Notes under the pieces: generated by a model
The model's input: only the letters and a program-made list of their open reading frames with translations
Told to the model about the DNA's origin: nothing
The model's database searches: none
Assembly (NCBI GenBank): GCA_963281255.1
Contig: OY725491.1
Coordinates: 4,700,857 to 4,764,856 of the forward strand
Origin: Aphrocallistes beatrix
Taxonomy: Eukaryota; Porifera; Hexactinellida; Sceptrulophora; Aphrocallistidae
Length of the DNA: 64,000 bases
Direction: 5' to 3'
Position numbers and translations under genes: made by a program
Shown: one piece after another, positions 1-58,600 of the stretch
Layout of the letters: each line of letters opens with the position of its first letter
How positions within the stretch are numbered: position 1 is the first letter of the stretch

Positions 1-641
1 CGCGGTTCGCTTGCTTGCGCTGCGCGGCTTGCTGACACTTCGTGTCCGCAGAGTCGCCCTGCGAGCGCCTGGAGTTACTCAATCTAAACTATTTTTGGAA
101 TTTTTTCCTTTATATATATATTGTAAACAAAAGGTCAACGAATAATTTTTCATATGGATCCGAAAATATGATATTCGAAATCTACACCCCTAAAAACCCC
201 ATGTCAACCGTTGGAAGCTAGTTTCTAGCATAATTTTCAAAATTCGTCAAATCGTGTGAAAATATGTATATAAAGGTGTGAAAATATACAAATAACCTTT
301 TTAACTGCCATACACTATAATATATAATTGAGACATTCATAAAAGTTATTGCTTTGAAGTAGTATTAATTACAATTACAGCCTACAATAGTGTCTTATAA
401 TGAATTCTATTGTGAGAGTGAAGCCGTACATAGTATTGTATAGAAAAGGTGTGAAAAATTGTTTTCCATTTTTTTTGCAGAGGTGTGAAAATTTCGCTTA
501 GATCTTAGAACTTAATCGTAGATTCATCATTTGACACCTTCATGCCAATTTTCGTATCTCTACGACTTACCAATTCTTCAATCAATTCGGGCAAACAAAC
601 AAACAAAACAAAAAAAAATCCTAGCATTTTAATATATAAGA
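1..641 (-). repeat. Helitron-like repeat, subfamily B, nearly complete copy
   Basis: Read on the minus strand, this copy starts at about 641 with TCTTATATATTAAAATGC and runs to the GC-rich 3' end at the window edge, which contains the CGCTTGCTTGCG core and a GGACAC/GTGTCC hairpin. The body contains several 'ggtgtgaaaa' motifs. It includes one unit of a roughly 140-bp segment (around 160-235) that is tandemly repeated in other copies. No protein is encoded. Assignment to Helitron/Helentron-type rolling-circle elements rests on the TC...TTAAAA 5' end and the terminal hairpin. The 3' end reads CTTGTA rather than the canonical CTRR, so the class is inference. Confidence 0.6.
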
Positions 642-1474
642 TACAAGCACGCTTCGCTTGCTTGCGCTGCGCGGCTTGCGGACACTGTGTGTCCGCAGAG
701 TCGCCCTGCGGGCGCCTGGAGTTACTCAATCTAACATATTTTGGGAATTTTTCCTTTATATAAATATCGTAAACAAAGGTCAACGAATAATTTCTCATAT
801 GGATCCGAAAGTATAATATTCGAAATCTACACCCCTGAAAACCCCATGTCAACCGTTGAAAGCAAGTTTCCAGCATATTTTTGAGATTTGTTTACTTTAT
901 GTATATATTGTAAACAAAAGTAAACAAATAATTTATCATATAGATCTGAAAATATGATATTCGAAATCTACTTCCCTGAAAACCCCATATCAACCGTTGG
1001 AAGCTAGTCTCTAGCCTATTTTTGTAATTTGTTTACTTTATGTATCTATTGCAAACAAAAGTAAACAAATAATTTATCATATAGATCTGAAAATATGATA
1101 TTCGAAATCTACACCCCTGAAAACCCCATGTCACCCGTTGGAAGCTAGTCTCTTGCATTATTTTCAAAATTCATCAAATGGTGTGAAAATATGTATATAA
1201 AGGTGTGAAAATATGCACATAATCTTTTTTATTGCCACACACTCTAATACATTTAAGATATCAAACATTAGTTGCTTTGAAGTATTATTAACGATGACGA
1301 TCTATTTATTGTAGTGTCGTACTTGTACAATGATTTCTATTGTAATAGTGTAGTCATTTATTTTGTATAGAAAAGGTGCGAAAAATTGTTTTCCATTTTT
1401 TTTGCAGAGGTGTGAAAATTTCGCTTAGATCTTAGAACTTAATCGTAGATTCATCATTTGACACCTACATGCCA
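642..1474 (-). repeat. Helitron-like repeat, subfamily B, second head-to-tail copy
   Basis: The 3' hairpin end of this copy (about 642-725) directly follows the 5' end of the previous one with no spacer, so the two form a head-to-tail pair. It has two or three tandem units of the roughly 140-bp internal segment that begins near 'accccatgtcaaccgttgga' (about 840-1145). Its 5' end is lost where the LINE fragment begins. Confidence 0.6.
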
Positions 1475-2030
1475 ATTGAACAGTGCAGCCAGGCTTATCT
1501 ACAATGTCTCTCGTACCTTTTCGTCATCTCCTCTTCTTATTAACCACTGGCTGCCTGTTAAACATCGTATCCTCTTTAAAATCCTCCTCATAACTTACAA
1601 AGCCATCCATTCTCTTGCTCCGGACTATATCATCCAGCTCATACAGGTTAAGTCATCCAATCGTACTCTACGATCATCCAACGCCATCCTCCTTGAGCAT
1701 CCTACTATCAAATCTTCCAAAACTCTGGGTGATCGTGCATTCACTTTAGCTGCGCCTGTTGAGTGGAATCTTCTGCCTCCGAGCATTCGGAATGCCCCCT
1801 CACTTCTTCTCTTCAAAAAACTCTTGAAAACTCATCTTTTCCGTATCGCGCACGACACATCCACTTAAATTAATTTCAATGCATATACATACCTTACAAG
1901 CATACATACACATACATACACATACATACATAACACACACCTACTTTTATTGAATTGTACAGCGCACTTGAACATATTAATATGGAATCTGCGCTATATA
2001 AATGTATATTATTATTATTATTATTATTAT
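1475..2030 (+). mobile_element. CR1/L2-type LINE, 3' end of the reverse transcriptase ORF plus tail
   Basis: The open frame to 1868 encodes the region after the palm of a non-LTR reverse transcriptase. It has the conserved blocks LNSAARLIYNVSR, HWLPVKHRI.FKILL.TYKA, LRSS, RAFTLAAPVEWNLLP and F.FKKLLKTHLF in the usual order. After the stop come (CATA)n and then GCGCTATATAAATG followed by an (ATT)n microsatellite at about 2012-2030, the typical 3' tail of CR1/L2-like LINEs. Only about 550 bp remain, so this is a 5'-truncated, dead copy. It lies exactly between two oppositely oriented subfamily B repeats. Confidence 0.85.
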
Positions 2031-2290
2031 GAAGTAAACAAATTCTAAAATAGGCTAGAGACTATCTTCCAAAGGTTGACATGGGGTTTTCAAGGGTGTA
2101 GAGTTCGAATATCATATTTTCGAATATATATATGAGAAATTATTTGTTAACTTTTGTTTGCAATATTTATATAAAGTAAATAAATTCCTAAAATAGGCTA
2201 GATTGAGTAATTCCAGGCGCCCACAGGGAGACTCTGCGGGCACAAAGTGTCCGCAAGTCACGCAGCGCAAGCAAGCGAAGCTCGCTTGTA
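2031..2290 (+). repeat. Helitron-like repeat, subfamily B, 3' end
   Basis: This piece holds one of the internal roughly 140-bp units, the 'gattgagtaattccaggcgcc' junction, the GC hairpins and the CTTGTA terminus at about 2290. Only the 3' part is present, because the LINE abuts its left side. Confidence 0.6.
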
Positions 2291-2871
2291 CTTTTCTAGT
2301 TGACTTGTTTAGATCAAGCTTGTCCAATCGGCCACACTCCGGCCCGTGAAAAGATTCTATCTGGTCGCTCACATGCTCGGGAATTGTTACTAAATGCACG
2401 CGATACTTGATTGAGTGAAACCTATTTGAGCGAACCCAATTTAACCAAATTTTATTTCGAATTTCGTAACCAAATTTTAACGAAACCATTTTCAACAAAG
2501 GTGTGGTTCAAATAACCTTATAAATCCTAATACGGTATTACTTTTTAATTGAGTTTTGATCTAATATTATCTGGCACATAACTGGGTTTCTCTCAACTTG
2601 AACAGTTCATATAAATTCCTAATAATAAACCATCTCAAACAGTGCTAAATATCGAATTAAAAATGTCAAAAGCAAACCTAGATCATTCCTAACAGACTCA
2701 TTCATCAAGAATATTACCGATTGCGACATCAAATATACGAGCTGACATTGACTCTTTGTGTAAACTAAATAAATGTAAGATATCCCAATATAATTGTTTC
2801 TATTATTAAAATTTCCTATCCTTACTATTAGAAGTCGATTAATGTGTATATGTACGTATGTATGTATGTAT

Positions 2872-3195: not shown

Positions 3196-3204
3196 GTATG
3201 TGTA

Positions 3205-3882: not shown

Positions 3883-4522
3883 TATATATTTATATTTCTG
3901 TAACGATTAGAGAAACTGCCAAGCACAGAAAGCTGAATTTTGGCATGTGGGAGTCTTTTGGCTATGGCTCCACTAAGTTCTGATCTCAGACGAAAATATT
4001 GACTCATCATGGAATTATGGTGTCATTGTCACCTTTTTATAGTTAGAAATTTCAGTTTTTTACTATAACTCTTAAAAGATTGTGTAATATTAATATTCTT
4101 CAAATATGATACAGATCATCAAAAAATGATGACTCATCATTCTGTTATGACGTCATCATTATGCATCAAAAAAAATGAAAAATTGACAAATTTTGTGAAT
4201 TTTCGAGTGATATGACGTATTTAGAGATATTATCTACCTTTTTTAATCAATGTGAGCCTAGGCGCTCAAAAGACGCCTCTGGCGGACACAAAGTGTCCGC
4301 CAGTCGCGCAGCGCAAGCAAGCGAAGCGCGTTGTAATGAAATAAAATATGTAGTTATTTTTCTGGAGAGTATAATCTATAATAATACAAGTTAACGCCAT
4401 CCCTAAATAAATAACAGTCATCATGTTGCCGTGATATATCCAAGGTTGTGCGGCCCTCAAGTAGCTAAAAAATCCCTTATTTGGCCCGCGAACAAATAAG
4501 TTTGGACAAGCTTGGTTTAGAT

Positions 4523-6052: not shown

Positions 6053-6613
6053 GATGAGATGTATTGTAGAGAACAAGCTCATACTTTATTTTCCTCTAAT
6101 TTACTTTGTAAATGATGTTAAATTTTGAATTAAATAATGATAAAATAGAACTTCATCCAATTTATTTTCGCTATTTATAGACTACTTTTATGGAGAAAGG
6201 AGGTTCTGGCGGCCTTATTCTCAGATTGATTTCAACTTAGACTTAATTTAAACTGAGTAAAAACATTAAAAACTAAATTGAAACAAGTATATTTATCCTT
6301 TGATAGCAAAAACTACGTACTTCTTGTAGATACTTAGTTTTAACTTAAATTCATATATTTTTTAGTTGACTTCGAAGGTGACTTAACTTACAATTTTACA
6401 AGCGCGCTTCGCTCGCTTGCGCTACGCGACTGGCACTTTGTACCGGAAACATCCTTTGGGTGTCTAGGCCTGCATTGATTAATTATAAGGTATAGTCAAA
6501 AACTGAAATTTGATTACGCATCAAAAATTGAAAAATTGGCAAATTTTGTGATTTTTATATAGATATAGATATATATTACTCCATAATAAGATTTATTATA
6601 TTTTCCCTTCAGG
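6053..6613. other. 3' flank of the membrane gene with an A-type Helitron-like fragment
   Basis: The first 120 bp are also present after the downstream copy and probably form the 3' UTR. At about 6396-6560 lies a minus-strand 3' end of a subfamily A repeat, with a degenerate hairpin (cgcttcgctcgcttgcgc). Confidence 0.5.
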
Positions 6614-10613: not shown

Positions 10614-10702
10614 ACAAGCGCGCTTCGCTTGCTTGCGCTGCGCGGCTGGCGGACACTTTGTGTCCGCCAGCCGCGCAGCGCAAGCAAGCGAAGCGCGCTT
10701 GT
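10614..10702. repeat. 89-bp perfect palindrome made of the Helitron-like 3' end
   Basis: Two 43-bp arms, perfectly inverted, flank a 3-base TTT loop. Each arm is the terminal sequence shared by all Helitron-like subfamilies here (acaagcgcgcttcgc ... ggcggacac). It is GC-rich in AT-rich surroundings and no body of any subfamily is attached. Confidence 0.9.
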
Positions 10703-11757: not shown

Positions 11758-12981
11758 TTAAAACACTTGCAAAGAGTATTCAGGGTTACGAGACAACACA
11801 AACAATTTTCCAGAATTAGAAAGGGCAATACCAACTGGTTCTTTGAATTCTCCTTTCTTTTTCCCTTCTTGGTTCTCTTTCTTTCCAATGGTGTGCAGTA
11901 GCTTCTCTGAGCTTGAGAATATCTTGATCACATGGTGTAAGTGGTCACTAATGAGGATATTCTGCACGCAATCCAGACAGAAGAACCAGGGTTGATAGAC
12001 CAAGCCCTTATTTACGCAGGAGGCAATGAGGTCTCCATTTCCTCTGGAGAAGAAGTGGATGCATTTAGGACTGTTGTCTAGTACTACCACTCTATCCATG
12101 GTTAGTTCGACGTCTTTAGGGAAAGATAGCGATCCTTTTCCTATAGTGAGCTTGTACTGTAAATGGTTAGAGAATACAGATATTCTGTGGTTGAGTCGGT
12201 CTGCTACGAACAAGTCCCCATTCCAGTCCACGCTTAATCCCCGTGGACCAAACAGCTGTCCTTCATCACTTCCTTTCAAACCAGCTCTGTACAGTAGTTG
12301 GTGACTGTTCTTGCAGAATCGGGAAAGCGTGTGATTACCGTAGTCTGTTACGAAGATGTCACCATGGCTGGCTGATATTCCCCAAGGACAGGAGAGTACG
12401 TTTTCGCCAAACTGAGATAGGATCTCTCCTTGGAAGGAGATTACTTGGACGCGATGGTTGGGTGTGTCCGTTATATATACCTTCTCATTAAGTTCGTCTA
12501 ATGAGAGTCCATTAAGCCCGCAATTTTCCCTTCCCACCACCGGGGTTAGGATGGGTTGTTTCTGAGAATACTCCGGTGCTTTCAGCTGGACTACCTCCCC
12601 GAGTTGCTCTATTTGTGACTGAAGGAGGGAGAAGGAGGGACAGGAGAAGGAAAGGTAGGGGGTTTGGTAGGGAACAGACTGCTGTTGCTCGGCCTCTTTG
12701 TACAGGACACCTGCTTGCTCGTGAACGGGGAGGTTAATATTACTCCTCTTCATTTGTTCCAGTTGTACTTGAGTTTTCTGCAACTCTTCGACGGCCTGGA
12801 CACGAGCAGGCTCTCTGTTTAGATAGTCCTCTCGGAGTTGAGCTACGTAACTACCGAGATCTTCCATCCTCTTAATCAGCTGCTTAATTAGAATGTTGAA
12901 AGTATCTTGGATTCGAGCGGCAATGAAATCGAATTGTGTGTCTGTGTTGTAAGGGGCGACATCTTGAACATCAGTTTCCAT
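11758..12981 (-). CDS. Coiled-coil/NHL-repeat protein 1
   Basis: Intact single-exon ORF of 407 residues. Residues about 20-95 form a heptad-like coiled coil (IKQLIKRMEDLGSYVAQL, VEELQKTQVQLEQMK). From about residue 150 it carries NHL repeats with the usual pattern of a start glycine, a hydrophobic V/I-x-D and N-H-R-I/V (ITDTPNHRVQVIS, VTDYGNHTLSRF, VADRLNHRISVFS), consistent with a six-bladed propeller. The layout resembles TRIM/NHL proteins without RING or B-box, so ubiquitin-ligase activity is not expected. NHL propellers bind RNA or protein, but no ligand can be deduced. It is the most divergent of the five family members in this window and the only intact one lacking the TATAAATA box. Confidence 0.8.
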   Translation of the reverse strand: METDVQDVAPYNTDTQFDFIAARIQDTFNILIKQLIKRMEDLGSYVAQLREDYLNREPARVQAVEELQKTQVQLEQMKRSNINLPVHEQAGVLYKEAEQQQSVPYQTPYLSFSCPSFSLLQSQIEQLGEVVQLKAPEYSQKQPILTPVVGRENCGLNGLSLDELNEKVYITDTPNHRVQVISFQGEILSQFGENVLSCPWGISASHGDIFVTDYGNHTLSRFCKNSHQLLYRAGLKGSDEGQLFGPRGLSVDWNGDLFVADRLNHRISVFSNHLQYKLTIGKGSLSFPKDVELTMDRVVVLDNSPKCIHFFSRGNGDLIASCVNKGLVYQPWFFCLDCVQNILISDHLHHVIKIFSSSEKLLHTIGKKENQEGKKKGEFKEPVGIALSNSGKLFVLSRNPEYSLQVF

Positions 12982-14002
12982 TGATTAGGATTTGGGCGAG
13001 TTTGTGTCGAATAGAATATTATACTAGACTAAGACACAATCTGTATTATATGTAACCGGAGAACGCCAGACGATCTCAATGGTAGATATGGATACTACTG
13101 GAGAATTAAGCAATTCAATCAAAACCCAAAAATTACCTAAATTCCCTTACATATCCACGTGGCCAATTTACATAACATTACCTCGCTCAATCCAAATAGA
13201 TCTGTTACACAATGATCGTAAAAATCGTTTGAAATAGGTGGATTTGTTCCGATTAGTAAATAGCATAATTCATTGGTTAATTAACAACATATCGGTTCCA
13301 TTCTAATACCAAAGGTATACTATAGGTATATCTACAACATTATGCAGACAAAATGATGATGAAAAAAATTTAAAACTGAAATGGTGTCTTCTTACGAATG
13401 ATAAGAGATAGGATAAAACTTATGATTGATCAAACGTTCAGTATGGATGTCTCTACAATACCATACTAACGCCATCATGATGATGTCATAGTGAGTGGAA
13501 CTATGACATCATCATGATGGCTTTTCATGTATAAGCTTGAAAATATAATAACCGTTTATATTAAATCCAAGCCTCTCAACTCTCACGATCTCGTGTGTCA
13601 CGATTTTCGCTGTTATACAATACAATTCTACCATATCTCACGATTTGCTATATGTCATCACACGATTTAGTTAGATTATCGGTTGAGAGGCAATCTAAGC
13701 CCATTTTGTATCGCAGATTTATTAACCATTTTCGCGTCATCATTTTACCAAATAGTATAAAGTTAATATCTAATAAGAAGATAGAAGTGAACATAGGATT
13801 CATAAAATGTTTAGTATGGTTGACTCCACAATATTATACGCCTTTTATTTAATAACGTCATTATGAATTAGGAAAAAAATATAAAATTGAGGGATAGTGA
13901 CGCAATAACAGAACCTTTCACATGTGTATTTTCACAATAAGTTGGAAGCACACTCCCATCCCGTCTTTGAGGTTTTTTCCAATTTCTTTTCCATTTTATG
14001 AA
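12982..14002. other. Upstream region of NHL protein 1 and intergenic DNA
   Basis: AT-rich. A degenerate stretch near 13185-13260 (cctcgctcaatccaaat ... tgttccgattagtaaat) resembles the pogo-like MITE at 21369. A separate perfect hairpin lies at 13471-13521. Nothing else is recognised. Confidence 0.35.
13471..13521. repeat. Perfect 21-bp inverted repeat with 9-base loop
   Basis: gccatcatgatgatgtcata with one further g is repeated exactly inverted at 13501-13521. The arms contain TGATGTCA, a CRE-like variant. It could be a short MITE or an isolated hairpin; there is no flanking duplication that I can see. Confidence 0.6.
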
Positions 14003-14652: not shown

Positions 14653-15190
14653 TAATCTTATATATTAAAATGCTAGGATTTTTTTTATTTGTCCGAATTG
14701 ATTGAAGAATTGGTAAGTCGTAGAGATACGAAAATTGGCATGTAGGTGTGAAATGATGAATCTACGATTAATTTCGAAAATCTAAGCGAAATTTTCACAT
14801 CTCTGCAAAAAAATGGAAAAAAATTTCACACTTTTCTATACAAAATAAATGACTACACTATCACAATAGAAATCATTGTACAAGTACGACACTACAATAG
14901 ATCGTCATTGTTATTAATACTTCAAAGCCACAACTTGTTTGATATCTTAAATGTATTATAGTGTATAGCAATAAAAAAGATTATGTGCATATTTTCACAC
15001 CTTTATATACATATTTTTTTGACGTCATTGTCACCTTTTATAATTAGAAATTTTAGTTTTTCGACTATAACTCAAGCCATTTTAGGTGATAGAAAGCTGA
15101 AATTATAATAGAATGTGTTACGTGTATATTAATATATCTCATATATGATACAATTATCATTAAGAAATGATGACTCATCACTCTGTTATA
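14653..15190 (+). repeat. Chimeric Helitron-like repeat: B 5' part joined to A body
   Basis: It begins with the B-type 5' end TCTTATATATTAAAATGC at about 14656 and follows subfamily B to about 15009. It then switches to subfamily A sequence (ttgacgtcattgtcacc ... gatgactcatcac). The 3' hairpin end is absent. Next to the switch lies a fragment of an NHL gene. Confidence 0.6.
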
Positions 15191-24101: not shown

Positions 24102-24465
24102 TCTTATGGCAAATTAATTTACGTCTTAAATCGCCCTTGACCCACCCCCACTAAATTTATAGGTGAAAGAGTGTAGAATAGTTTGAGAGAAAAGCATTTA
24201 AAAGCAGTTTTTGTCGGATCTTCTGGGGTTATATTTGAAGCAAAAATACTTATAAGAAATATCTGATCCGATTCATTCTTTTGAACACGAGAAAAAAGGT
24301 AGATAGCCTGAGTAAGATTAGTAGTGAATTCATTTTCGAGGCCAAATGAAGAATAAAGTTTTTCTAAAGTGTGGTAATGTGGAAGAGAAATATAATCTAA
24401 ACTCTGGAGGTAGTTATAGCAAGAAGGTTAAATTAGATGAGTATTGAACGCAAAAATTTTTGAAT
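24102..24465. other. Intergenic, no feature recognised
   Basis: AT-rich, no recognisable gene or repeat. Confidence 0.3.
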
Positions 24466-24893
24466 TGATTGAAGAATTGACAAGTCGTAGAGATATTAAA
24501 ATTGGCATGTATGTGTCAAATGATATGACTACGATTAAGTTCCAAGATCTAAGCGAAATTTCACACCTCTGCAAAAAAAATGGAAAACAATTTTCAACCT
24601 TTTCTATACAAAAGAAATGACTCTACACTATCGCAATAGAAACATTGTACGACACTAGTACAATAGATTGTCATTGTAATCACTATTTCAAGGCCACAAC
24701 CTAGGTTTGATAACTTAAATGTATTAAAGTGTATTGCAATAAAAAATTATGCGTATATTTTCACAACTTTATACACATATTTTCACACCATTTGACGAAA
24801 TTTGAAAAGTATGCTAGAGACTAGCTTCCAACGGTTGACATGGGGTTTTCAGGGGGTGTAGATTTCGAACATCGTATTTTCGAGTAAATTAGA
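24466..24893 (+). repeat. Helitron-like repeat, subfamily B, internal part
   Basis: From 'ttgattgaagaattgacaag' to one roughly 140-bp unit ending at about 24893. Both the terminal 5' bases and the 3' hairpin end are missing. Confidence 0.6.
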
Positions 24894-25531
24894 TAATTAA
24901 ATTGTTCAATAAATTCTATAAACTATTTTAAATAATGGACATTATTATCCGCTAGTTATAATCTCAAAATCCCTAGATTTTTCATTAAATCCCTAGATCC
25001 CTGGATCATAAGTCATTTTCCTGGATAATCCAAGGGATCCCTGGAGGGTTGGTAAGTATGCCAGTGGTCCTGACTATAAGGATGTAGGGGAATGTTGAGT
25101 TTGCTGAAATCTTCCCCCATCACCAGGAGCATCATCTCTTTCAATATCAGATGAGAAAGGGTGAGAAAGTAATTATCCGAATTCGAATTAGTTATTGTAG
25201 GATATTTCTAATCAATTACTAATTCCCAATTATTTCACATTATCAATCACTGCCACCTTGTGCTACATATGTCCCTTTTTATCACCATACATGATGGTGA
25301 TGTACTACTCCACAGGTTGATAATTTTACTCATTGAGTTGAGCAATTTGTTAGAAATCTTCAACTATTACTAATTCGAATGTGAAGATTTCGAATCTTAA
25401 ATCAGACTCTTAATAGCTCTTAGAGTTTGAATACTTTTCCATTCATGAAAAGATCAATTTAGTACCATTTGTATGGGGAAGAATATAGTGTACAAATACT
25501 TTTGTCCGGTTAGTGTATATATATATAGATA
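24894..25531. other. Intergenic with a single hAT-type end
   Basis: At about 24960-25060 'atccctgga' motifs lead to AGGGTTGGTAAGTATG, a hAT-type terminus; no partner end was found. The rest is unassigned. Confidence 0.35.
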
Positions 25532-25844: not shown

Positions 25845-26219
25845 TACAAGCGCGCTTCGCTTGCTTGCGCTGCGCGGCAGGCGGACACTTTGTGTCCACC
25901 GGAGGCGCCCTGCGGGTGCCTGGGGTCACATTGGTTAATGATAAGGGGAATAACATCTCTAAATACGTCTGTCCTACTGTTATAATCGATATCGTACAAA
26001 AGTCACAAAATTTATCAGTTTTTAAAATTTTGATGAGTAATGATGACGTAATAACAAAGTGATGAGTCATTATTTTCGGATGATACTATGTGAGGCATGT
26101 TAGTATACAGATTCTATTAAAAATTTCAGTCTTCTATCTCCTATAATGGCTGAGTTATGCCGAATAACTGTGTTGCTTAACTTTTAAAAATGTGACAATT
26201 ACGTCATAATTCCATGATT
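25845..26219 (-). repeat. Helitron-like repeat, subfamily A, 3' half
   Basis: The terminal hairpins lie at 25845-25925, with the body up to about 26219, where a pogo-like MITE interrupts. It contains a TGACGTAA-like remnant and GATGAGTCAT sites. Confidence 0.65.
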
Positions 26220-26621: not shown

Positions 26622-27518
26622 TATATATATGTAACGAATTGATTGAAGAAACTGCCTGTCATAGAAAGCTGATTTTTGGCTATGGCTCCAGTAAGTTCTG
26701 AGCTCAGACGAAAATGGGATACCGACAATTCGCACCACGACAATTCGCACCCGACAATTCGCACCAACGACAATTCGTATTGCGACAATTGGCACCACGA
26801 CAATTCGTACCACTTTTGATTGGTCAATTTAATTTATTATACGAGTACATACAAGCATAATGTTCTACTATTTTAAAATTAAATACTTAATTCGCTCCCA
26901 AACAGAAATGATGGGCCACACCCCTTAAGAATTCCATCTTAGTACGATCTTCGTCAAAATACATAGTGCAAGACTAAATCAATCAGGGCTTGTTCACTTG
27001 CTTGAGACCGCTTTCTCTTTGTCGGGGCCCTACCGTAAGGAACCTAGCCTGCCTCACTTCCACTAACCCCTGCTCACGCTTGAGGGCGGCAATAAATTCC
27101 CATATTGTGGGATGGTGGCACCCAACAGTGGCGTTGAAGCTATGGTGCCAGCTTCAGTTCCACAGGGCGATAGGGTCGGCTCACTGTAGTATCCGCTTAA
27201 GAGTGTGCGCACGACATAGGTCCTCTGAAAGTAGTCGAGTTGTTCGGCTGCTTCGGCAGTGGGTGGAAGCAAGAGTGCAACGCTGTCAAACAGCTCGTAT
27301 ACATCAAAGGGATGTACGAATCTTATTTTGTGTTGTAATAACAACAATTGTGGTGCGAATCGTCAGTATCCCGACGAAAGTGTCGACTCATCATGGAATT
27401 AAGACGTCATTGTCACATTTTTAAAAGTTATGCAATACAGTTATTCGAGCATAACTCACACAAAGCGACACAAAGTGTCCGCCAGCCGCGCAGCGCAAGC
27501 AAGCGAACCGCGCTTGTA
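26622..27518 (+). repeat. Helitron-like repeat, subfamily A, interrupted by a MULE
   Basis: A-type body from 'taacgaattgattgaag' to 26715, resuming at 27373 and ending with the hairpin terminus at 27518. The insertion duplicated gacgaaaat. Confidence 0.7.
26716..27372 (-). mobile_element. MULE (Mutator-like) element, deleted, with transposase C-terminus
   Basis: Inverted ends GGGATACCGACAATTCGCAC and GTGCGAATCGTCAGTATCCC are flanked by a 9-bp duplication, gacgaaaat (26707-26715) and gacgaaagt (27373-27381). Repeated 'cgacaattcgcacc' units mark the left end. On the minus strand SWHHSFNATVGCHHPTIW is followed by EFIAALKREQGLVEVRQ, the conserved C-terminal block of MULE transposases of the FLYWCH-associated type (usually 'NN.VEGWH..F...HPTIWKFI.ALK'). 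The preceding YFQRTYV..R block lies in another frame. Most of the transposase is absent. Confidence 0.75.
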
Positions 27519-27532: not shown

Positions 27533-27569
27533 TCCTTACTATTAAAACTCGATTAATGTTTGTATATAC

Positions 27570-27601
<32 letters not shown>

Positions 27602-28103
27602 GTATATCTGTAACGAATTGATTGAAGAAACTGCCGGTCATAGAAAGCTAATTTTTGAAATGTGGGAGTATTTTGGCTATGGCTCCAGTAAGTTCTGAGC
27701 TCAGAGCAAAATGTCGACTCATCATGGAATTATGACGTCATTGTCACATTTTTAAAAGTTAAGCAATACAGTTATTCGAGCATAACTCAGCTATTATAGG
27801 AGATAAAAGGTTGAAATTTTAATAGATTATGTATATTAATATATCTTACATATGGCACAACTGTTATCAAAAAATGATGACTCATCACTTTGTTATGACG
27901 TCATCATTACTCATCAAAATTTTAAAAATTGGTAAATTTGGTGATTTTTCGTGCGATAGAGTTTATAACAGTAGGACAGACGTATTTAGAGATGATATCT
28001 CCCTTATAATTAACCAATGTGACCTCAGGCGACCGAAGGGAGCTTCAGGCGGACACAAAGTGTCCGCCAGCCGCGCAGCGCAAGCAAGCGAAGCGCGCTT
28101 GTA
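27533..28103 (+). repeat. Helitron-like repeat, subfamily A, complete copy
   Basis: Starts TCCTTACTATTAAAACTCG, then a (TA)n/ACGTATA tract, the A body and the 3' hairpins (GGCGGACACaaaGTGTCCGCC, then CGCAAGCAAGCG), ending CTTGTA at 28103. It contains TGACGTCA at 27733 and 27896 and TGACTCA at 27878. It lies head-to-tail between two other A copies. Confidence 0.75.
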
Positions 28104-28124
28104 TATATATATACTATATATATA

Positions 28125-28619
28125 TGTAACGAATTGATTGAAGAAACTGCCAGGCACAGAAAGCTGATTTTGGCATGTAGGAGTCTTTTGGCTATGGCTC
28201 CAGTAAGTTCTGAGCTCAGAGCAAAATGTCCACTCATCATGGAATTATGACGTCATTGTCACATTTTTAAAATTTAAGCAACACAGTTATTCGAGCATAA
28301 CTCAGCCATTATAGGAGATAAAAGGCTGAAATTTTAATAGAATATGTATACTAACATACCTCACATATGACCCAACTATTATCAAAAAATGATGACTCAT
28401 CACTCTGTTATGACGTCATCATTACGCATCAAAAATTTTAAAAATGTACAAATTTGCTGATTTTTCAAGCGATATCGATTATGCCAGTAGGACATGCTTA
28501 TTTAAGGATTTCATCTCCCATCTAATTAATCAATGTGACCCCAGGCGACTGAAGGGAGCCTCCGGCGGACACAAAGTGTCCGCCAGCCGCGAGGCGCAAG
28601 CAAGCGTAGCGCGCTTGTA
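28125..28619 (+). repeat. Helitron-like repeat, subfamily A, head-to-tail copy
   Basis: Follows the previous copy after a 21-bp TA spacer. It has TGACGTCA at 28248 and 28411 and TGACTCA at 28393, and ends with the hairpin terminus at 28619. The TCCTTACT start is missing. Confidence 0.7.
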
Positions 28620-29941: not shown

Positions 29942-30152
29942 ACAAACGCGCTTCGCTTGCTAGTGCTGTGCGGCTTGCGGACACATGATGTCCGCAGAGT
30001 CGCCCTGCGGGCGCCTGGAGTTACTCAATCTAACCTATTTTAGGATTTTTTTTACTTTATAAATATTTTAAACAAAGGTTAACAAAAAAGTAAACAAAGT
30101 AATTTTCAAATCTACTCGAAAATATAATATTCTAAATCTACACCCCTGAAAA
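29942..30152 (-). repeat. Helitron-like repeat, subfamily B, 3' end
   Basis: Hairpin terminus (diverged core gcttgctagtgctgtgc) and the first part of the B body, cut at about 30152 by the hAT element that follows. Confidence 0.55.
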
Positions 30153-30196
30153 CCCGGGCTTGCCGTGGAGATAAAAAATCCCATCCATATCCATAT

Positions 30197-32639: not shown

Positions 32640-32802
32640 CTTTGTAATTTGTTTACTTTATGTATTTAGTGTAAACAAAAGTAAACAAAGAATTTATCAC
32701 ACATATTTGAGTGCAGATAATTTGATTTTAGTGTAGGTAATGCTCAGACAGACACAAAGTGTCCGCCAGCAGCGCAGCACAAGCAAGCGAAGCGCGCTTG
32801 TA
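32640..32802 (+). repeat. Helitron-like 3' end, subfamily B type
   Basis: 'tttgtaatttgtttacttta' body sequence followed by the GTGTCCGCC hairpin half and the CTTGTA terminus. Confidence 0.55.
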
Positions 32803-34432: not shown

Positions 34433-34737
34433 TGAATGTTTCTGTGTTTTATTTGAGTCAATAATGAATTGTTTACTGAGTATATATTTATATCAGATGA
34501 GAAGTGTGTTGGTCTCATGAGCTGATAGTGTGTGTTGTGTCGTAGTAAGAGGGAGAGACTGATTAGAGAATAACTGGTAGGTTTGTGGCTAGTTTCCTTG
34601 AAGCAGGAGTGTGTCATGTTTCTGAAAGGATATCTCCTTGTGTAACAAGCTTTTACACTCAGTAATTACTTTCAATGTTCTCTACTTTAATATCTCATTT
34701 TGAACAAATGAATGTTTGAATAATTATGCAAATATGC
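34433..34737 (-). promoter_or_regulatory. Upstream region conserved between NHL genes 3 and 4
   Basis: About 300 bp match the upstream region of the gene at 23131, including a TATAAATA box at 34485-34492 (minus), 'gttgtgtcgtagt' and 'tccttgaagcaggagtgtgt' blocks. Similarity ends at about 34735, marking the edge of the duplicated unit of about 1.5 kb. Confidence 0.7.
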
Positions 34738-40304: not shown

Positions 40305-40655
40305 GCCTGTAGGGTTTCAGTTGGGGAGGCTCCCCCATATTTGGGGGGAACCCCCCCATTTCTATCAAATTTTGGATCCCATTTGGGGGGGCCCCTTCAA
40401 ATTGGGGGGGGACCCCCCCAATTTTTATTATTATTATCCTCGATTTGGGGGAGCCCCCCCAAATTTGGGGGGTACCACCCAATTATTTCTATTTTAGCAG
40501 TCTATATGGGGGGTCCCCTCCAGAATTGGGGGGAACCCCCCCAAATTAACATTTAGATTTCTGCCTAGGGGGACCCCCTCAAATTTGGGGGGGTCCCCCC
40601 GATTTTATCATTAGTCATATTTTTATTTGGGGGGGGGGTCCCCCCATTTATAATT
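40305..40655 (+). repeat. G-run/C-run palindrome repeat, copy 1
   Basis: About ten short palindromes of the form G(5-8)-NN-C(5-8), often joined as CCCCCCAAATTTGGGGGG, separated by AT-rich spacers, with an outer 'tgtagggtttcagttggg'. It is inverted relative to the copy at 42400-42728, to which it matches nearly along its whole length. Noncoding. It may be one arm of a 2.4-kb foldback element or one of two independent inverted copies. Confidence 0.8.
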
Positions 40656-41044: not shown

Positions 41045-41357
41045 TGTGCACTTTTTTGGACTCATGGACTGGAATGATTATTTAAGTATAATAATCTTTA
41101 GTAATGTGAACTTTGTGTATTCAAATTGGGCTTACATTCGGGATTAGTTGACTTAATACGAAGTAAATTATATTTATCAAGAAATAAAATTTATGCTACA
41201 GTTCTGGTTTCATTAATGTAACCGTAGACAAATGATAATCCAGCGTACTTAGTATAAAACAAGAAAGCGACGTATATTCCCAAGCACCCACTGGGTAAAT
41301 CTGCGGACACGCAGTGTCCGCAAGCCGCGCAGCGCAAGCAAGCGAAGCGTGCTTGTA
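41045..41357 (+). repeat. Helitron-like repeat, subfamily C, 3' part
   Basis: 'catggactggaatgattatt' to 'gcttacattcgggattagt' matches 52418-52502. After that comes the common hairpin terminus (GCGGACACgcaGTGTCCGC, then CGCAAGCAAGCG) ending at 41357. With the 5' part at 51989 it defines a third subfamily. Confidence 0.6.
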
Positions 41358-42399: not shown

Positions 42400-42728
42400 A
42401 ATATAAATGGGGGGACCCCCCCAAATTAAAATATGACTAATGATAAAATCGGGGGGGGGGGCCCCAAATGTGGGGGGTACCCCTAGGCAGAAATCTAAAT
42501 GTTAATTTGGGGGGGTCCCCCCCAATTCTGGAGGGGACCCCCATATAGACTGCTAAAATAGAAACAATTGGGGGGTAGCCCCCAAATTTGGGGGGGCTCC
42601 CCCAAATCGAGGATAATAATAATAAAAATTGGGGGGGTACCCCCCAATTTGAAGGGCCCCCCCAAAATGGGATCCAAAATTTGATAAAATGGGGGGGGGC
42701 CCCCCCCAACTGAAACCCTACATAGCCC
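42400..42728 (-). repeat. G-run/C-run palindrome repeat, copy 2 (inverted)
   Basis: Reverse complement of the copy at 40305-40655, with the same spacers (for example 'gaggataataataataaaaa', 'ctaggcagaaatctaaatgt') and small length changes in the G and C runs. Apparent ORFs across it are artefacts of the Gly/Pro-coding runs. Confidence 0.8.
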
Positions 42729-43938: not shown

Positions 43939-44365
43939 AACAAGCACGCTTCGCTTGCTTGTGCTGCGCGGTTGGCGGACACTTTGTGCCTGGTCTCACA
44001 ATGAGTAATTATAAAGGAGATAAGATCTCTAAATATGTGTTGCTTACTGTTATAATCGATATCACTCGAAAATCATCAAATTCGTCAGTTTACGTCATAA
44101 GAGTAATGAGTCCTCATTTTTTGATGAAAGTTTTATCATATGTTAGATATATTCATATACACATCCTATTAGAAGCCTTCTATGTATCACCTAAAATGGC
44201 TGGGTTCTAGTCGAAAAACGGAAATTTCTAATTATAAAAAAGGTGACAATGAAGTCATAATTCCATGATGAGTCCACATTTTCGTCTTTAGTCAGAACTT
44301 AGTGGGGCTATAGCCAAAAATCAACTTTCTACGCCAGGCAGTTTCTTCTATCAATTGGTTATATA
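43939..44365 (-). repeat. Helitron-like repeat, subfamily A, 5' end missing
   Basis: Hairpin terminus at 43939-43990 (partly deleted after GGACACTTTGTG) and an A body up to 'agtttcttctatcaattgg'. It continues into an AT tract. Confidence 0.6.
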
Positions 44366-44544
44366 TATATATATTTAGGCGTATGATTTTAAGCTGCAAA
44401 GTGTTTAGGAGCGTAAAAATTCAGAAAAATACCCAATTTACCCAATATTATAATGTCATTTAGCGATTTAGGCGTATGAAAATTTAGAAATTTTAGATAG
44501 GAGCGTATCTCTGGAAGGCTGTATAATACCCTGATATATATCTA

Positions 44545-46656: not shown

Positions 46657-46675
46657 CTTATTATGAACTACCAGT

Positions 46676-49948: not shown

Positions 49949-50726
49949 TACAAGCGAGCTTCGCTTGCTTGCGCTGCACGCGGCTGGGGGACACTTTGTG
50001 TCCGCCAGAGGTGCACTTTGGGCGCCTGGGGTCAGATTGATTAAGTATAAGGGAGATAGCAACTCTAGATACGTTTGTCCTACTGCTACTTGTATAATCG
50101 ATATCGCACGAAAAATGACCAAATTTGTCAATTTTTAAATTTTTTTGATGCGTAATGATGACGTCATAACTGAGTGATGAGTCATCATTTTTTGATGATA
50201 CAGTATAACGTCAGTTATCCGAACCCCTTGGTTGACCAAACTAAGCAGTCAATCAGGTAGCACACCAAAGGGTTCTATCGTCCTACTCTATGCGCTGCTT
50301 ACTCAGATATCGGGAAAACGATTTCAGCCGCTAATACAGTCTAAAGTTAGCGATTATTTTGAAAAGGTCGAGATCAATATGTATTTTATCCATATTGATC
50401 ATTATGACTACTTAGTACTACTAACCAACTTTTCTATATAATTACATAACAACTTCAGTTATTCGAACATTTCAGTTATCCGAACCCCCTCGGTCCCAAC
50501 CCGTTCGGATAACTGAAGTTCTACTGTAGTTGCATCATATGTAAGGCATAATAATATACACATTCTATTAATTTCTGCCTTCTATCCCCTAAAATTCCAT
50601 GATGAGTCGATATTTTGGTCTGAGATCAGAACTTAGTGGAGCCATAGCCAAATGATTCCTACATGCTAAAAATCAGCTTTCTGTGTCTGGCAGTTTCTTC
50701 CATCAATGCGTTACAGATATATTTTA
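49949..50726 (-). repeat. Helitron-like repeat, subfamily A, interrupted by a MITE
   Basis: Hairpin terminus at 49949-50030 and A body to 50200, resuming at 50527 and ending at 'agtttcttccatcaatgcg'. First of three same-orientation copies in a row. Confidence 0.65.
50201..50526. mobile_element. pogo-like MITE, type 4, with an empty-site comparison
   Basis: The ends CAGTATAACGTCAGTTATCC and GGATAACTGAAGTTCTACTG are flanked by TA. The A copy at 51121-51603 has the uninterrupted site (ttgatgatagttgcatcat at about 51281-51299), proving insertion at one TA with TA duplication. Confidence 0.9.
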
Positions 50727-51095
50727 TACAAGCGCGCTTCGCTTGCTTGCGCTACGCGGCTTGCGGACACTGTGTGTCTGCAAAGTCGCCATGCGGGCGC
50801 CTGGAGTTACTCAATCTAAACTATTTTTGGAATTTTTTTCCTTTATATATATATTGTAAACAAAGGTCAACGATAATTTTTCATATGGATCCGAAAATAT
50901 GATATTCGAAATCTACACCCCTAAAAACCCCATGTCAACCATTGGAAGCTAGTCTCTAGCCTATTTTGTAATTTGTTTACTTTATGTATATATTGTAAAC
51001 AAAAGTAAACAAATAATTTATCATATCGATCTGAAAATATGATATTCGAAATGTACACCCCTAAAAACTACATGTCAACCGTTGGAAGTTAGTTT
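50727..51095 (-). repeat. Helitron-like repeat, subfamily B, 3' part
   Basis: Hairpin terminus directly after the previous element, then B body with two of the roughly 140-bp units. The 5' part is missing. Confidence 0.65.
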
Positions 51096-51120
51096 TAATT
51101 AAAAATGATAGATGATAGTA

Positions 51121-51603
51121 TACAAACGCGCTTCGCTTGCTTGCGCTGCGCGGCTGGTGGACACTTTGTTACATCTGTACTAATGTTATAATCGATCATA
51201 CGAAAAATCACCAAATTTATCAATTTTTAAAATTTTGATGAGTAATGATGACCTCATAACAAAGTGATGAGTCATCATCTTTTGATGATAGTTGCATCAT
51301 TTGTGAGTTATGTTAGTATACAGAGTCTCTTAAAATTTCAGCCTTCTATCTCCTATAATGGCTGAGTTATGCTCGAATAACTGTATTGCTTAACTTTTAA
51401 AAATGTGACAATGACGTCATAATTCCATGATGAGTCGACATTTTGCTCTGAGCTCAGAACTTAGTGGAGCCATAGCCAAAATACCCCCACATGCCAAAAA
51501 TCAGCTTTCTGTGCCTGTCAGTTTCTTCAATCAATTCGTAATATACACGTATAGATATATATACACACATACAAACACATTAATCGAGTTTTAATAGTAA
51601 GGA
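51121..51603 (-). repeat. Helitron-like repeat, subfamily A, end to end
   Basis: Has both ends: the hairpin terminus at 51121 (the second hairpin partly lost) and the 5' end, here CGAGTTTTAATAGTAAGGA, at 51603. Contains TGACGTCA at about 51413 and GATGAGTCATC. Confidence 0.7.
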
Positions 51604-51944: not shown

Positions 51945-51988
51945 GCATGCTTTCCTAACACAATCACTATATATTCAAAATATAAACA

Positions 51989-52502
51989 TCTTATATATTA
52001 AAACGCAATGTGTTTTTTTGTTTGTGCAAATTGATTGAGGAACTGGGAGATGCTAGAAACGTGAAATTTGGCACACACGTAATTAGTAATGAAACGAAGG
52101 GAGTTCGAAGATCTAAGCGAAATGTTCACACCTCGCCGAGATAGGTGACAAATAAAATCGATTTATAATGCAAATACATTGGAATAAAATAGTAGTGACT
52201 TATGCATATAATCAAAAGGACTATTTGTGATTGAAATTCATTGGTTTATGTGAGAACCAATCAATTATTAGCCTTTTATAATGCCATTCATACGATTCTA
52301 TTTCATATAAATGATTGAATACTGCTATTTTGAGTATAAAATTTAATTGTTAACAACAATTAAAGTGTGTTATATGCTACGATCAATCAATTCGATCATA
52401 AAATAACTTTTAACGACATGGACTGGAATTGATTATTTAAGTAGAATAATCTTTAGCAATGTGAACTTTGTGTATTCAAATTGAGCTTACATTCAGGATT
52501 AG
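51989..52502 (+). repeat. Helitron-like repeat, subfamily C, 5' part
   Basis: Starts TCTTATATATTAAAACGCAA, then 'tttgtttgtgcaaattgatt' and 'gtgaaatttggcacacacgt', a start style common to animal Helitrons. It breaks off at the hAT element at 52503. Confidence 0.65.
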
Positions 52503-53285
52503 TAGGGTTTGGAATCCGGATAGTAATATCCGGATACTATCCGGTTACCTAAACCATACAAATTATCCGCTATCCGGATATTAGCCTGATGGATATCCGG
52601 ATTCATACAATTGATTCGTTTAAAATCGTTATAACAAATCTGATACAAATATAGATTCGTTGCTGTTGACAAGCTTCAAGCATAATACCAATAACAATGA
52701 TTGTTTTACTATAACACATTTCTATACATACTACTCGACTATCTGTCTGATTCTATCAGCTACAAGATGACTATAAGTATATTATCAAAATATTTCCTCC
52801 AATTATATTCTACATGTCCACAATTCAAGTAAAGAAATCTGAAGTTTGGCAACATTTTTCACGACAGGGCGATTTAGCAACATGCAATATATGTAATACA
52901 CAAATTTGTTGTAAGGGCGGTTGTACTAGTGCTATGCGAAATCATTGCCGCTCGAAGCACAAAATTTGTTTTAATGAGTTCCCAGAAACGGCAAAGAAGA
53001 AATGTAATAATCAATCAGAAATTCTACAGTATTATACCAAGAAGGAGTCTTTAGCAGAAATTATCTCTAGACTTACTGCGGAGGATGGATTTAGCTTCCA
53101 TGGAATAGTAAGAAGTCAATTCATTAGGAGATCTTTGAATGAAAAAGGATATAGCCCACCTTTGTGCCCGAAAACTGCAGCAAGACTTGTCATTTCCTTC
53201 AGCAAAAGTATTAAAGAAAATTTGTCAAGACAAATATCAGGATTACTTCTCAAAGGAACAAGATTCAGTATTTCATTAGATGGTA
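52503..53285 (+). pseudogene. hAT element, 5' end with BED-finger transposase, truncated
   Basis: TAGGGTTTGGAATCCGGATA starts the element, followed by many ATCCGGATA motifs to about 52600. The ORF starts at 52814 and encodes about 157 transposase residues: a BED zinc finger (VWQHFSRQGDLATCNICNTQ, then a C-C and H-x4-H context RNHCRSKH), then ITRL-like hAT sequence up to GTRFSISLDG, the start of the catalytic domain. There a MITE is inserted, and the remaining ORF codons to 53398 are MITE sequence. The rest of the transposase is absent. Confidence 0.75.
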
Positions 53286-53889
53286 TGTTGCAGTGTGAAT
53301 GCGAAACTGGTGGATTCGCGAATACACTGAATAGTTGGTGGATTCGCGAATACACCGGTGCAAATGTGAAACCTTTTTATCTTAAACCTTATGGTTGATT
53401 TATATTTCTCATAGGAACAACTAGATTACAACAAACGAGATAATGTGTGATTATTCGAAATGAACAAAGATGTTGTATAGATTGGGAAGAAGATCGACAA
53501 TATATACTAAGTACAATGAAATCTATTACCTATTCTTGACAGTTTATTATTACATACTTGTATCCTGAACTGATTCAAAAAACAAAGTTGACTAATCTTT
53601 TTCTCACGCCAAAAATGTAGTTGTATAGTAGCTTTGAAAACATGTTGTTTACATCATCTTACTGTCAAATTTTTAGTTATGAAACAGCTGAGTATTACTA
53701 ATAATAGTACAAATACTACTTATTTCCTTTGAGTTATATAATTAACCAACCATAAGATTTAAGATAAAAAGGTTTCGCATTTGCACCGGTGTTTTCGCGA
53801 GTCCACCAACTATTCAGTGTATTCGCGAATCCACTAACTAGTATTCAGTGTATTCGCGAATCCACCAGTTTCGCATTTACACTGCAACA
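53286..53889. mobile_element. MITE with TTCGCGAAT repeats, copy 1
   Basis: Inverted ends TGTTGCAGTGTGAATGCGAA and GCATTTACACTGCAACA. Both arms carry direct repeats of 'ttcagtgtattcgcgaatcc', two at the left and three at the right. Inserted in the hAT transposase ORF. Confidence 0.8.
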
Positions 53890-53919
53890 TCTATCTATCT
53901 ATATATATATATATATATA

Positions 53920-54286: not shown

Positions 54287-54294
54287 TATATATA

Positions 54295-54483: not shown

Positions 54484-55370
54484 ATATATAAACAAACAAT
54501 AATCGAGTTTTAATAGTAAGGATAGCTAGTTTAGGGCAGAGGAGAAAAAGGAACACAAATTAATCCCAAGATCATGAGAACAGCATCAGATTACATTTTC
54601 ATTGAACATTTCAGAAATTTTTAAATATCACTGATTGCGGTCATTGACAGCAAAACTGAAATAATTATCACTTATATGATATTTTTCACATTTACAACAC
54701 TTCAAGTGATTCGCTAGCCTATTGGCATACGTATATTCTGAGTTTCATGTAATCCAACATGTAAAGGTATTTAATTAATCTACTTGTTTTCTTCTGTTAG
54801 TAATTCGTGATTCAATTATTTCACATGTTGCTTTTGTATTAAATTGGGAAATTTTATACTTTCGTGCACTTATTGATGGTATTGGAGCTGATATTTTGCT
54901 TAGAATATCATTTTCAGGAATATAACAAATGTACGAGTGTTATCTTAGCAGCGGATTCGAAGTCGCACTTAATCGCTTATAACTCGAAAAGTATTCGTCC
55001 TAGATCAAAAATAATTATGCCAGTGGAAAGAAGAGAGTTGGTGTATTTCATTTTTAAGTTTAATATTTAAAATTTTCACAAAATGAGTTAGCAGTGACAC
55101 ATCAAATTTAGGTCTCAGTTTTTGGTTAATATCTCATGAAATATTTATGATAAAAACTTTTCCTTTAAACTACGTTTATTTCAGCCTTAGTGTATTTTGT
55201 ATTTCAAATTTCAAATTAAAATATTAATTTTTGGACGAATTATTAATAATTGAATTTTACATTATAATAATGTGATATCCCCGGGATTGAATCTATCAAA
55301 AATATCTTCTTTTGATTGCTAAATTCGTGTCCCACTAAATTTCCAGCAATTTGATATATATATTGACCCA
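54484..55370. other. Intergenic with one Helitron-like 5' terminus
   Basis: 54496-54525 is the inverted 5' end of subfamily A (taatagtaagga). Thereafter AT-rich sequence without recognised content. Confidence 0.4.
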
Positions 55371-56910
55371 TAGCCTACTGCACCAATAAGGCCTTTTCAC
55401 TGAACAATTTTCCATGGTACCAGGGATAAGATAAAGTGGATTTTCTTACGCACCCATAATATGAATAAATAATTTTTATTCCAAATCTAATTCATCATTT
55501 GTTTAATGTATAACTAACTATATGAAACTAGTCTACGTTCCAATAAATTATATATCAATAATTTTCTTTCTCTGCTATACTTGTATGGTTCCTTTTTACT
55601 TTTACGTTGTATTTGTTTTTGAATGTTAGCTCTCAACTGTTTCTGTACATATAAGGATGCGCCACGCAGCAAAGGGGCAATGGGGAGGCGGGATGGACCC
55701 ACAAGGAAGTATCCGGCGACGCAGCATAGTGTTGTACATGAGACGGTGGTTGTGGTACCAGTTAAATGGAACGGCAAACCCATCAATGTAATGATAGACA
55801 CGGGGGCGGATCCTTCGGTGGTGGACAAAAGCTGAATATCCCTTACAGCACAAAGTACAGTCAAGTGTATGGGCTTGGGCGGACAGCGCTTGCGGTCTGT
55901 GGTACGGCCTGCGTGGCGATAGATGTGGGGGAAGGTCGACCACTAGAACACGAAATCGAAGTACTCGATACAAACAATAGGGTGGTTATATTGGGGCGAA
56001 GGTTACTCTCGCGCGCTTCAAGAATACTGCTTTCGATTGGGAAAACATGAGAGTTAGGCTAGGTGGTTGTTGGAAAACCTCTTTAGCTGCGGCATATGCG
56101 GCGACTAGAGCAGAAATTATGCAGGCTGAGATGGGAAAGGAGGGAGATAGCTTGGAGGCCAGGTTCGATATAAACCCGAAACTATCACCGCGAGAAGAGA
56201 CAGCCATACGCAAGGTGCTGTCGAGACGGAAATACGTTTTCGCTGAGAACCCGAAGAGCCCGCGTGAAATTGGAACCGCGGAACACGTTATCACTCTTCT
56301 GGATGAGCGGCCGATCAGAAGTCGACCGTTGCGTGTTTCTCCGGAAATTGGGGCGGAGGTATCCAAGCAGATAGATGAAATGCTCGAGAATGGGATCATA
56401 CGTCCCTCTTCTTCCTCTTGGGCGAGTCGAGTGATCTTAGTGAAGAAAAAAGACGGGACCCATCGATTTGCCGTAGATTACCGGGATCTCAACGATGTGA
56501 CGAAGCGAGATGCCTATCCGATGCGGGATCCCCGAGATGTTTTCGATCGTATGGGAGGGGCAACTGTATTCTCTACATTGGATGGGGCATCCGCATACTG
56601 GAGCGTGCCTGTGAAGGAAAAGCATAGGGAGTTCACTGCGTTTGTTTCAACTCGCGGCCAGTTTGAATTCAACCGCATGCCTTTTGGATTGTCAAACTCA
56701 CAGGCTACCTATCAGCAAGCGGTAGACCAGGTTCTACGAGGGTGTCCAAATGTACAGGCATTTGTTGATGACACATGTGTCCACTATCCCAGTTTCGATA
56801 AGCACCTGGAGCATTTGGATGAGGCTCAGTTGGCTATTCTAAAATTTGAGGATGAAGAATGTGAGGATTTGGCTTTTGAGTGTACTGATTGCTGTATTGA
56901 CGGAAAAGAT
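55371..56910 (+). mobile_element. Ty3/gypsy-type retroelement fossil, copy 1
   Basis: A leader of about 245 bp shared with copy 2 is followed by a retropepsin region with the D-T-G-A motif and a reverse transcriptase region with the FAVDYR, LDG.SAYWSVPV and F-V-D-D blocks typical of Ty3/gypsy. The match to copy 2 ends soon after the palm. RNase H, integrase and LTRs were not found. It is a broken, partial fossil with several breaks. The high similarity to copy 2 suggests it is not ancient. Confidence 0.8.
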
Positions 56911-57192
56911 ATGCTACGTTGTATTTTAATGACTTCAAGTAACTGTTTACTCAACAACAAGGCCAAGAATATTCTTCTACCACCTCTTGTCCCAAAGATA
57001 CTCAAAGGAAGATACTTAAACTCACCTCTAATTAATATATGTATATATATATACACCTATATATTTATGTAGTATTCCTTGTCCGTCAACTAAATTATGC
57101 CAGCAGTCAGTAATATCATTATTGTGGGGTAGAGGATGTATAATTACACGATATTAAATATATCAAAATGATATTGTGTTAAATTTAATTGT
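56911..57192. other. Sequence between the retroelement fossil and the foldback element
   Basis: Not shared with copy 2 of the fossil. AT-rich and unassigned. Confidence 0.35.
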
Positions 57193-57712
57193 ATTAAAAA
57201 CTCGACTTTATCTTATCCCTGGTCTAAAGTAGTGAAATGGCCTGTATATAGTAGGCTATGGTTGACCATATTTGGAGAATTATTTTGGTTGCCCGTTCCT
57301 AGCAACGGCCAGGAATGTTAAAACATTCCGATCTCCAAATTTTGGAGTAACCATATCGAGTGACCCCTTGTTCTTCTCGGCTAGGTTCAGCGAGTACGAA
57401 TATGCTAATTAGAACACTCTGACATATCATATGTGGAATATATGAAAGTTTTACCACATTCAACTAGACCTGCCACAATGGCATGCCACAAAACTCTCTA
57501 ATTAGCATATTCGTACTCGCTGAACCTAGCCGAGAAGAACAAGGGGTCACTCGATATGGTTACTCCAAAATTTGGAGACCGGAATGTTTTAACATTCCTG
57601 GCCGTTGCTAGGAACGGGCAACCAAAATAATTCTCCAAATATGGTCAATCATAGCCTACTCTAATAAGGCCTGACATCTAATGTACCATGGATGAGGTAG
57701 AGGACGGGAATG
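57193..57712. mobile_element. Foldback element sharing outer sequence with the fossils
   Basis: Arms of about 220 bp; the inner 165 bp of each (from 'tagtaggctatggttgacca') are nearly perfect inverted repeats. The outer parts, 'actttatcttatccctggt' at left and its diverged inverse at right, match the first 60 bp of both retroelement fossils (55377 and 61575). Confidence 0.8.
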
Positions 57713-57970
57713 TAAAATTCCAAAATTTTACTAGCTTAGCTTATTAACTGATTCAATGGATTCAAACTGTGTATTTTATTATATTCCCAACCTTGGTACA
57801 TTTGTAATCATCAAATTCATCCAAAATTATATTTAATGAATTACTAATATATAACAACTCAAACATCTTTGTATATCAATTAATCAATGGAAAATGGCAA
57901 TAAATGTCTTCATAATGATTCTTTGCATTCTGCTCTATTTCTCATTCTCTCTCTCTCTCTCTCTCTCTCA
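57713..57970. other. Intergenic, ends with a (CT)n microsatellite
   Basis: (CT)n at about 57947-57970. Otherwise nothing recognised. Confidence 0.5.
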
Positions 57971-58600
57971 CAATAGAAATCATTATACGACAATATTGTA
58001 GGCTGTAATTGTAAATTATTACTTCAAAGCAATAAGTTTTATGAATGTCTCAGTTATATATTATAGTGTATGGCAATTAAAAAGGTTATTTCTATATTTA
58101 CACACCTTTATATACATATTTTCACACGATTAGAAGAATTTTGAAAATTATGCTAGAAACTAGCTTCCAACAGTTGACATGGGGTTTTTAGGGGTGTAGA
58201 TTTCGAATATCATATTTTCAGATCGATTTCATAAATTATTTGTTGACTTTTGTTTACAATAGACACATAAGGTAAACAAATTACAAAATTATGCTACAAA
58301 CTAGCTTCCAACGGTTGACATGGGGTTTTCAGGGGTGTAGATTTCGAATATCATATTTTCAGATCTATATGATAAATTATTTGTTTACTTTTGTTTACAA
58401 TAGACACATAAAGTAAACAAATCTCAAAAATATGCTAGAAACTAGCTTCCAACGTTTGACATGGGGTTTTAAGGGGTGTAGATTCCGAATATCATATTTT
58501 CGGATCCCAATGAAAATTATTCGTTGACCTTTGTTTACAATATATATATATAAAGGAAAAAAATCCGAAGATAGTTTAGATTGAGTAACTCCAGCGCGCT
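57971..58600 (+). repeat. Helitron-like repeat, subfamily B, with three 140-bp units
   Basis: Body from 'cacaatagaaatcattatac', then three tandem roughly 140-bp units (each with 'cttccaac.gttgacatggggt'), then the shared 'agattgagtaactcca' joined directly to GCGCGCTTGT. The hairpins between are deleted. Confidence 0.65.

Follow-up and report, generated by a model that had tools for sequence, protein, structure and literature searches.

The repeats described here are compared with four published systems, as portrayed in the portions of the papers cited. Helraiser of bats (Helibat1; PMC4778049; PDB 7lcc) starts with TC, inserts between A and T and ends with CTAG, its 3' palindrome forming a hairpin 11 nt from the terminus. 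Bypass of its 3' end, as well as copies abutting each other and new 3' ends in Myotis, are described in the same source, where CTTG figures among the de novo ends. CTTG is also the end of HELPO2 of the fungus Pleurotus, an element with an A/T target and a subterminal hairpin (PMC4289320), and has been reported for maize Helitrons (PMC4289320, PMC4778049). In Helentrons a coding element is accompanied by numerous short derivatives (HINE, DINE-1); they insert in T-rich sites, and some carry OTU genes (PMC4067079). The Helitron2 elements FoHeli of Fusarium encode a RepHel; FoHeli1 and FoHeli2 have an ATTTT end and asymmetric terminal inverted repeats, and their hairpin is separated from the 3' terminus by about 30-40 bp (PMC5148889).

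The window, i.e. the whole stretch of 64,000 nucleotides analysed (contig OY725491.1), is part of the genome of the hexactinellid sponge Aphrocallistes beatrix, which measures 100,537,919 bases in 28 contigs. The repeats found in the window (Table 1) are mostly short, gene-less Helitron copies, and represent a variant of a known rolling-circle kind. The three families A, B and C are almost certainly non-autonomous derivatives of canonical Helitrons (Helitron1, Helraiser-like), moved by the RepHel of autonomous copies hosted by the same genome. A dense and odd-looking repeat set can in this way be recognized as Helitron, and autonomous partners can be named for it, long open frames being present in some.

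The repeats are real, as tail motifs exceed chance by far and the tail is present thousands of times genome-wide. The motif GGCGGACAC, with up to 1 mismatch, has 27 matches in the window, whereas 3.26 would be expected and none of 100 shuffles exceeded 9; for CGCAAGCAAGCG, 2 mismatches being allowed, there are 19 matches versus 1.46 expected (largest shuffle, 5), one of which (27006, minus strand) is no tail on inspection. The exact tail pattern is found in the genome 1467 times in forward and 1561 times in reverse orientation, its reversed control never. Exact tails of all families number 4059, and the 23-base start of family B has 3520 exact matches; the two patterns differ in length, and the figures are only roughly comparable. 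The earlier note on this DNA had counted about twenty copies, which is roughly true for tails (17 ends scanned), while 5' starts are only 7. Two of the 17 ends belong to one palindrome, the end at 33240 lacks the hairpin part, and the scan overlooks both the mutated end at 4334 and an end cut by the window edge. An Rfam search of the window returned nothing at gathering score. No account of this tail emerged from a literature search that scarcely reached subscription journals, which is weak evidence.

Table 1. Helitron copies and fragments identified in the window.
Position	Strand	Feature
1..641	-	family A copy, 5' start 641, tail cut by window edge
644..1477	-	family A copy, tail end 644, 141-bp tandem array 730-1164, 5' start not found
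2029..2288	+	family A tail and array remnant
3891..4334	+	family B body and tail, terminus mutated
6399..6489	-	degenerate tail
10614..10701		near-perfect palindrome, two tails back to back, no 5' start found
14656..15189	+	A-type 5' start and body, tail not found
24462..24905	+	A-type body fragments
25847..26218	-	family B copy, apparently 5'-truncated, 372 bp
27373..27516	+	family B piece with tail
27533..28101	+	family B, complete, 569 bp, TC...CTTG flanked by A and T
28115..28617	+	family B body and tail
29943..30155	-	family A, tail plus body
32751..32800	+	tail alone
41063..41355	+	family C, body plus tail
43941..44373	-	family B body and tail
49951..50200	-	family B, apparently 5'-truncated
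50729..51089	-	family A tail with 140-bp array
51123..51603	-	family B, complete, 481 bp, TC...TTTG flanked by A and T
51989..52503	+	A/C-type 5' start, C-type body, tail not found
54502..54522	-	family B 5' start
58056..58565		A-type 141-bp array, ends not found

The window holds other sequences as well. A BED zinc-finger frame (52751-53398) is located about 250 bases past the C-type fragment for which the window shows a 5' start and no tail. A reverse-transcriptase frame (55981-57072) has a near copy 6.35 kb on (62674-63236), with stretches 95% alike, and hAT-like transposase frames are found at 59424-61007, the second including a hAT dimerisation domain. NHL-repeat proteins are encoded at 11758-12984 and 21953-23131, both confirmed by Pfam, and at 33254-34492, a region resembling a copy of the second. 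Two arrays, at 40321-40543 and 42504-42666, consist of short GGGGGG/CCCCCC palindromes repeated at a period near 61.

The limits of the elements are TC at the 5' end and CTTG at the 3' end. The 5' motif as written in the earlier note has no match in the window at up to 1 mismatch, the actual starts being TCCTTACTATTAAAA (4) and TCTTATATATTAAAA (3). The 22 aligned B copies start with TCCTTACTATTAAAACTCGATTA, preceded by A, and end with GCGCGCTTG, followed by T; A- and C-type copies begin with TCTTATATATTAAAA. In the extracted loci, duplicate or overlapping ones being excluded, A precedes 51/53 starts, the other two being direct joins of CTTG to TC, and T follows 68/68 ends, a count including loci (L001-L008 and L039-L058) found by a pattern that requires CTTGTA. 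At the window ends and the four autonomous loci described below, the next base is T in 21/21 and the next two are TA in 16/21; genome-wide, T follows 3987 of the 4059 exact tails and is missing in 72. Because T regularly follows CTTG, and TA does so in most cases, the CTTGTA terminus previously proposed must be split into CTTG, which is part of the element, and a TA-rich target, in which T is flank and A a mere preference. One extracted copy ends with CTAG. The TC start and the insertion between A and T are those of canonical Helitrons; CTTG stands in place of CTRR. In B copies, among which L001 and L046, a TA run is located just inside the 5' end, and is a likely preferred target; nested copies and 5' starts arranged in strings would be accounted for in this way. 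A copy nested in the flank of H12, one of the autonomous elements, starts with TA.

It had been suggested that an autonomous copy encoding Rep/helicase be sought between such ends, and four full-length elements with the same ends, 9.5-9.9 kb in size, have been identified. H12 (9510 bp), H13 (9505 bp) and H14 (9587 bp) feature single frames of 1947, 1959 and 1970 aa, respectively; in H09 (9949 bp) the frame is broken in two (1531 and 452 aa; all measured stop to stop). RepHel is the only frame of at least 200 aa in the first three, and H09 has an extra 202-aa frame. As in canonical Helitrons, a HUH Rep and a PIF1 helicase are thus joined in a single protein, in one frame in H12, H13 and H14. 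Helitron_like_N, PIF1 and Pif1 2B domains were detected by Pfam in the two proteins scanned (H13 and H14), along with STPR repeats in H13 and an OTU domain in H14; the H13 C-terminus also matches OTU (6.4e-05, 23.9 bits versus a cut-off of 23.3). Helitron_like_N (PF14214) has 106 matches in the genome, many with stops or fragmentary, and is found in 0 of 14 control genomes. A 1652-aa piece of H14 matches Helraiser (7lcc) with 1041.9 bits, residues 189-1650 of the query being aligned to residues 22-1468 of the 1496 of the chain. The HUH stretches are aligned, and YLYKYVYKG is opposite YLFKYIYKG (YxxxY). These stretches presumably hold the catalytic residues.

The identity between H13 and H14 is 69% across 4157 aligned positions, and the top local alignment between their initial 600 bases spans only 16 bases. 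Family B consists of a tail joined to roughly 480 bp from the 5' part of the H13 lineage; families A and C have the 5' start common to a second autonomous lineage (H09, H12 and H14). The partition in three subfamilies with different bodies holds in that bodies do differ, and is explained by B being the 5' part of one lineage and A and C sharing the 5' start of the other.

Filled and empty sites were aligned, as the earlier note had proposed. Of 14 joined flanks, five have a place in the genome spanning the join: 29 places for H13, 8 for H09, 3 for an A/C-type copy of 752 bp, 1 for a B copy, and 2, both partial, for another B copy. The search scored 40 of 6280 first-look candidates, and unmatched joined flanks thus carry no information. 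No junction gap was seen in the 5 H13 sites inspected, nor in the 4 inspected for H09, where A is found to the right instead of the T of the filled site. All three sites of the A/C-type copy were inspected; two are exact and one is short of a base beside the junction. One B empty site, which falls within a TA run, is ambiguous. In a B copy nested in another, an uninterrupted B copy matches across the junction. No target-site duplication was found in the clear cases (H13, the A/C-type copy, H09, the nested B), and the target is A/T, one element remaining ambiguous.

RepHel located between the ends, empty sites without duplication and the dominance of RepHel frames support, at the sequence level, rolling-circle transposition. 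By analogy to published Helitron work, RepHel would nick the 5' TC, one DNA strand would then be peeled off, the tail hairpin would serve as stop signal, and the freed strand would join a new site between A and T.

Tail hairpins were analysed in a sample in which 47/61 tails passed a filter that required an arm of the first hairpin and an arm of the second to be present, and that therefore favours these two. The alignment used for pairing includes 37 of the 47 tails and three autonomous tails (39 distinct), and was compared with 500 shuffles, which ignore the relatedness of tails. The middle stem is paired in 336/351 cells from 39 tails (shuffle mean 324.8, largest 333), and at its base a G-C pair changes to T-A between families, after a manual alignment shift of one column. 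The first stem is paired in 243/310 cells (mean 241.4, largest 247) and in B carries two mismatches at its centre; the third, paired in 295/310 (mean 295.4, largest 297), does no better than shuffles, and its palindrome, folded alone, is as stable as shuffles (z -0.06). Three whole tails fold more stably than shuffles (z -3.84, -3.72 and -2.99). Of the up to three hairpins previously described, the middle one is hence firm, the first depends on the family, being weakened in B, and the third is unproven. The middle hairpin is 29 nt from CTTG and the third palindrome ends at CTTG, an arrangement differing from that of canonical Helitrons, where a palindrome of 16-20 nt is separated from the 3' terminus by about 11 nt.

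The displaced hairpin is one of the features that would be expected if the families were short HINE-like derivatives of a Helentron or Helitron2 lineage, since 29 nt is near the 30-40 bp of FoHeli1/2; the OTU-like domain of both scanned proteins and the internal tandem arrays of family A point in the same direction. This is nonetheless very unlikely. The target is A/T and not T/T or T-rich, the 5' flank being A in nearly all starts; TC start, CTTG end and the strong Helraiser match disfavour it as well, and no endonuclease family, and hence no AP endonuclease fused to RepHel as in Helentrons, was detected in the two scanned proteins at E up to 0.001. Target, ends and Helraiser match are the grounds on which the elements are assigned to Helitron1 and plausibly set apart from Helentron and Helitron2, the latter being typified by asymmetric terminal inverted repeats together with a hairpin at either end. 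It is scarcely credible that the elements form a distinct, unnamed group transposing as single strands, as had been considered on account of the CTTG terminus, the displaced hairpin and the up to three tail palindromes: the RepHel gene between the ends is Helraiser-like, target and start are A/T and TC, and CTTG ends are already published. Of that earlier proposal the rolling-circle part stands, given RepHel within the ends and no target-site duplication, and the distinctness does not. A SINE-like retroelement with a fixed 3' end, or a MITE duplicating TA, has a negligible probability, for although several B copies appear 5'-truncated and TA is often found on both flanks, exact B starts are, in a rough comparison, about as common as exact tails, TA is missing from 20/53 left flanks, empty sites keep the flanks once, and the same ends are found in copies that encode RepHel.

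In both H13 and H14 the terminal tail is B-like and is preceded by an older, broken one, and the junctions differ. The end tails are alike to that of one B copy at 135/140 and 106/119 positions, respectively. The exact junction of the H13 type is found at 3 places in the genome, that of the H14 type at 8; an identical double-tail arrangement is shared by H12, H14 and H09, which inserted separately. The second tail may have been acquired by bypass and take-over, and broken and new tails resemble natural cases of Helraiser 3' end bypass. Palindromic double tails were also considered as a mobile class, and rejected because rare. Ten genome sites were found (the pattern occurs at 5 forward and 10 reverse places); of four inspected, the one in the window and L069 are stand-alone, L067 is in a larger inverted arrangement, and L071 is an ordinary tail.

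A tail and a B start lie within 12 bases of each other at 162 places, and no spacer separates them at 100, versus about 0.7 head-to-tail abutments expected by random A/T insertion, an approximate figure that takes neither the preference for TA nor clustering into account. If copies enter at the A/T of a resident's 5' border, abutment would be explained with no new target rule; alternatively, insertion may occur at the 3' border of the resident. In 8 of 17 abutting loci inspected both units are complete, and these are 0.903-0.974 alike, 112 unit pairs from different loci having a mean of 0.939 and a maximum of 0.986; unit identities do not support the notion that abutting pairs are concatemers of one event. 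The upstream unit is nearer to the majority sequence in 3/8 pairs. Abutting copies provide a countable pattern of insertion at resident-copy borders. We tentatively propose that the 3' tail is a portable terminator: each lineage may have run past its stop and adopted the tail of a neighbour, insertions favouring the borders of resident copies and thereby supplying neighbours.

Set against the systems cited at the outset, and within what the cited portions of those papers report, the elements are most similar to Helraiser, sharing with it the RepHel, aligned over residues 22-1468 of 1496, the TC start, the A/T insertion and a 3' palindrome, besides the abutting copies and new 3' ends described in Myotis; they differ for CTTG instead of CTAG, for the supported hairpin, 29 instead of 11 nt off, and for the OTU-like C-terminus and up to three tail palindromes found here (PMC4778049). 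The likeness to HELPO2, judged by description, concerns CTTG end, A/T target and subterminal hairpin (PMC4289320). With Helentrons they share the abundance of short copies derived from a coding element and the OTU genes, which some Helentrons carry, but Helentrons insert in T-rich sites, whereas the elements here are at A/T and an endonuclease was not found in the scanned proteins (PMC4067079). RepHel and hairpin position are reminiscent of FoHeli1/2, which end with ATTTT, the sponge elements with CTTG, and which bear asymmetric terminal inverted repeats (PMC5148889).
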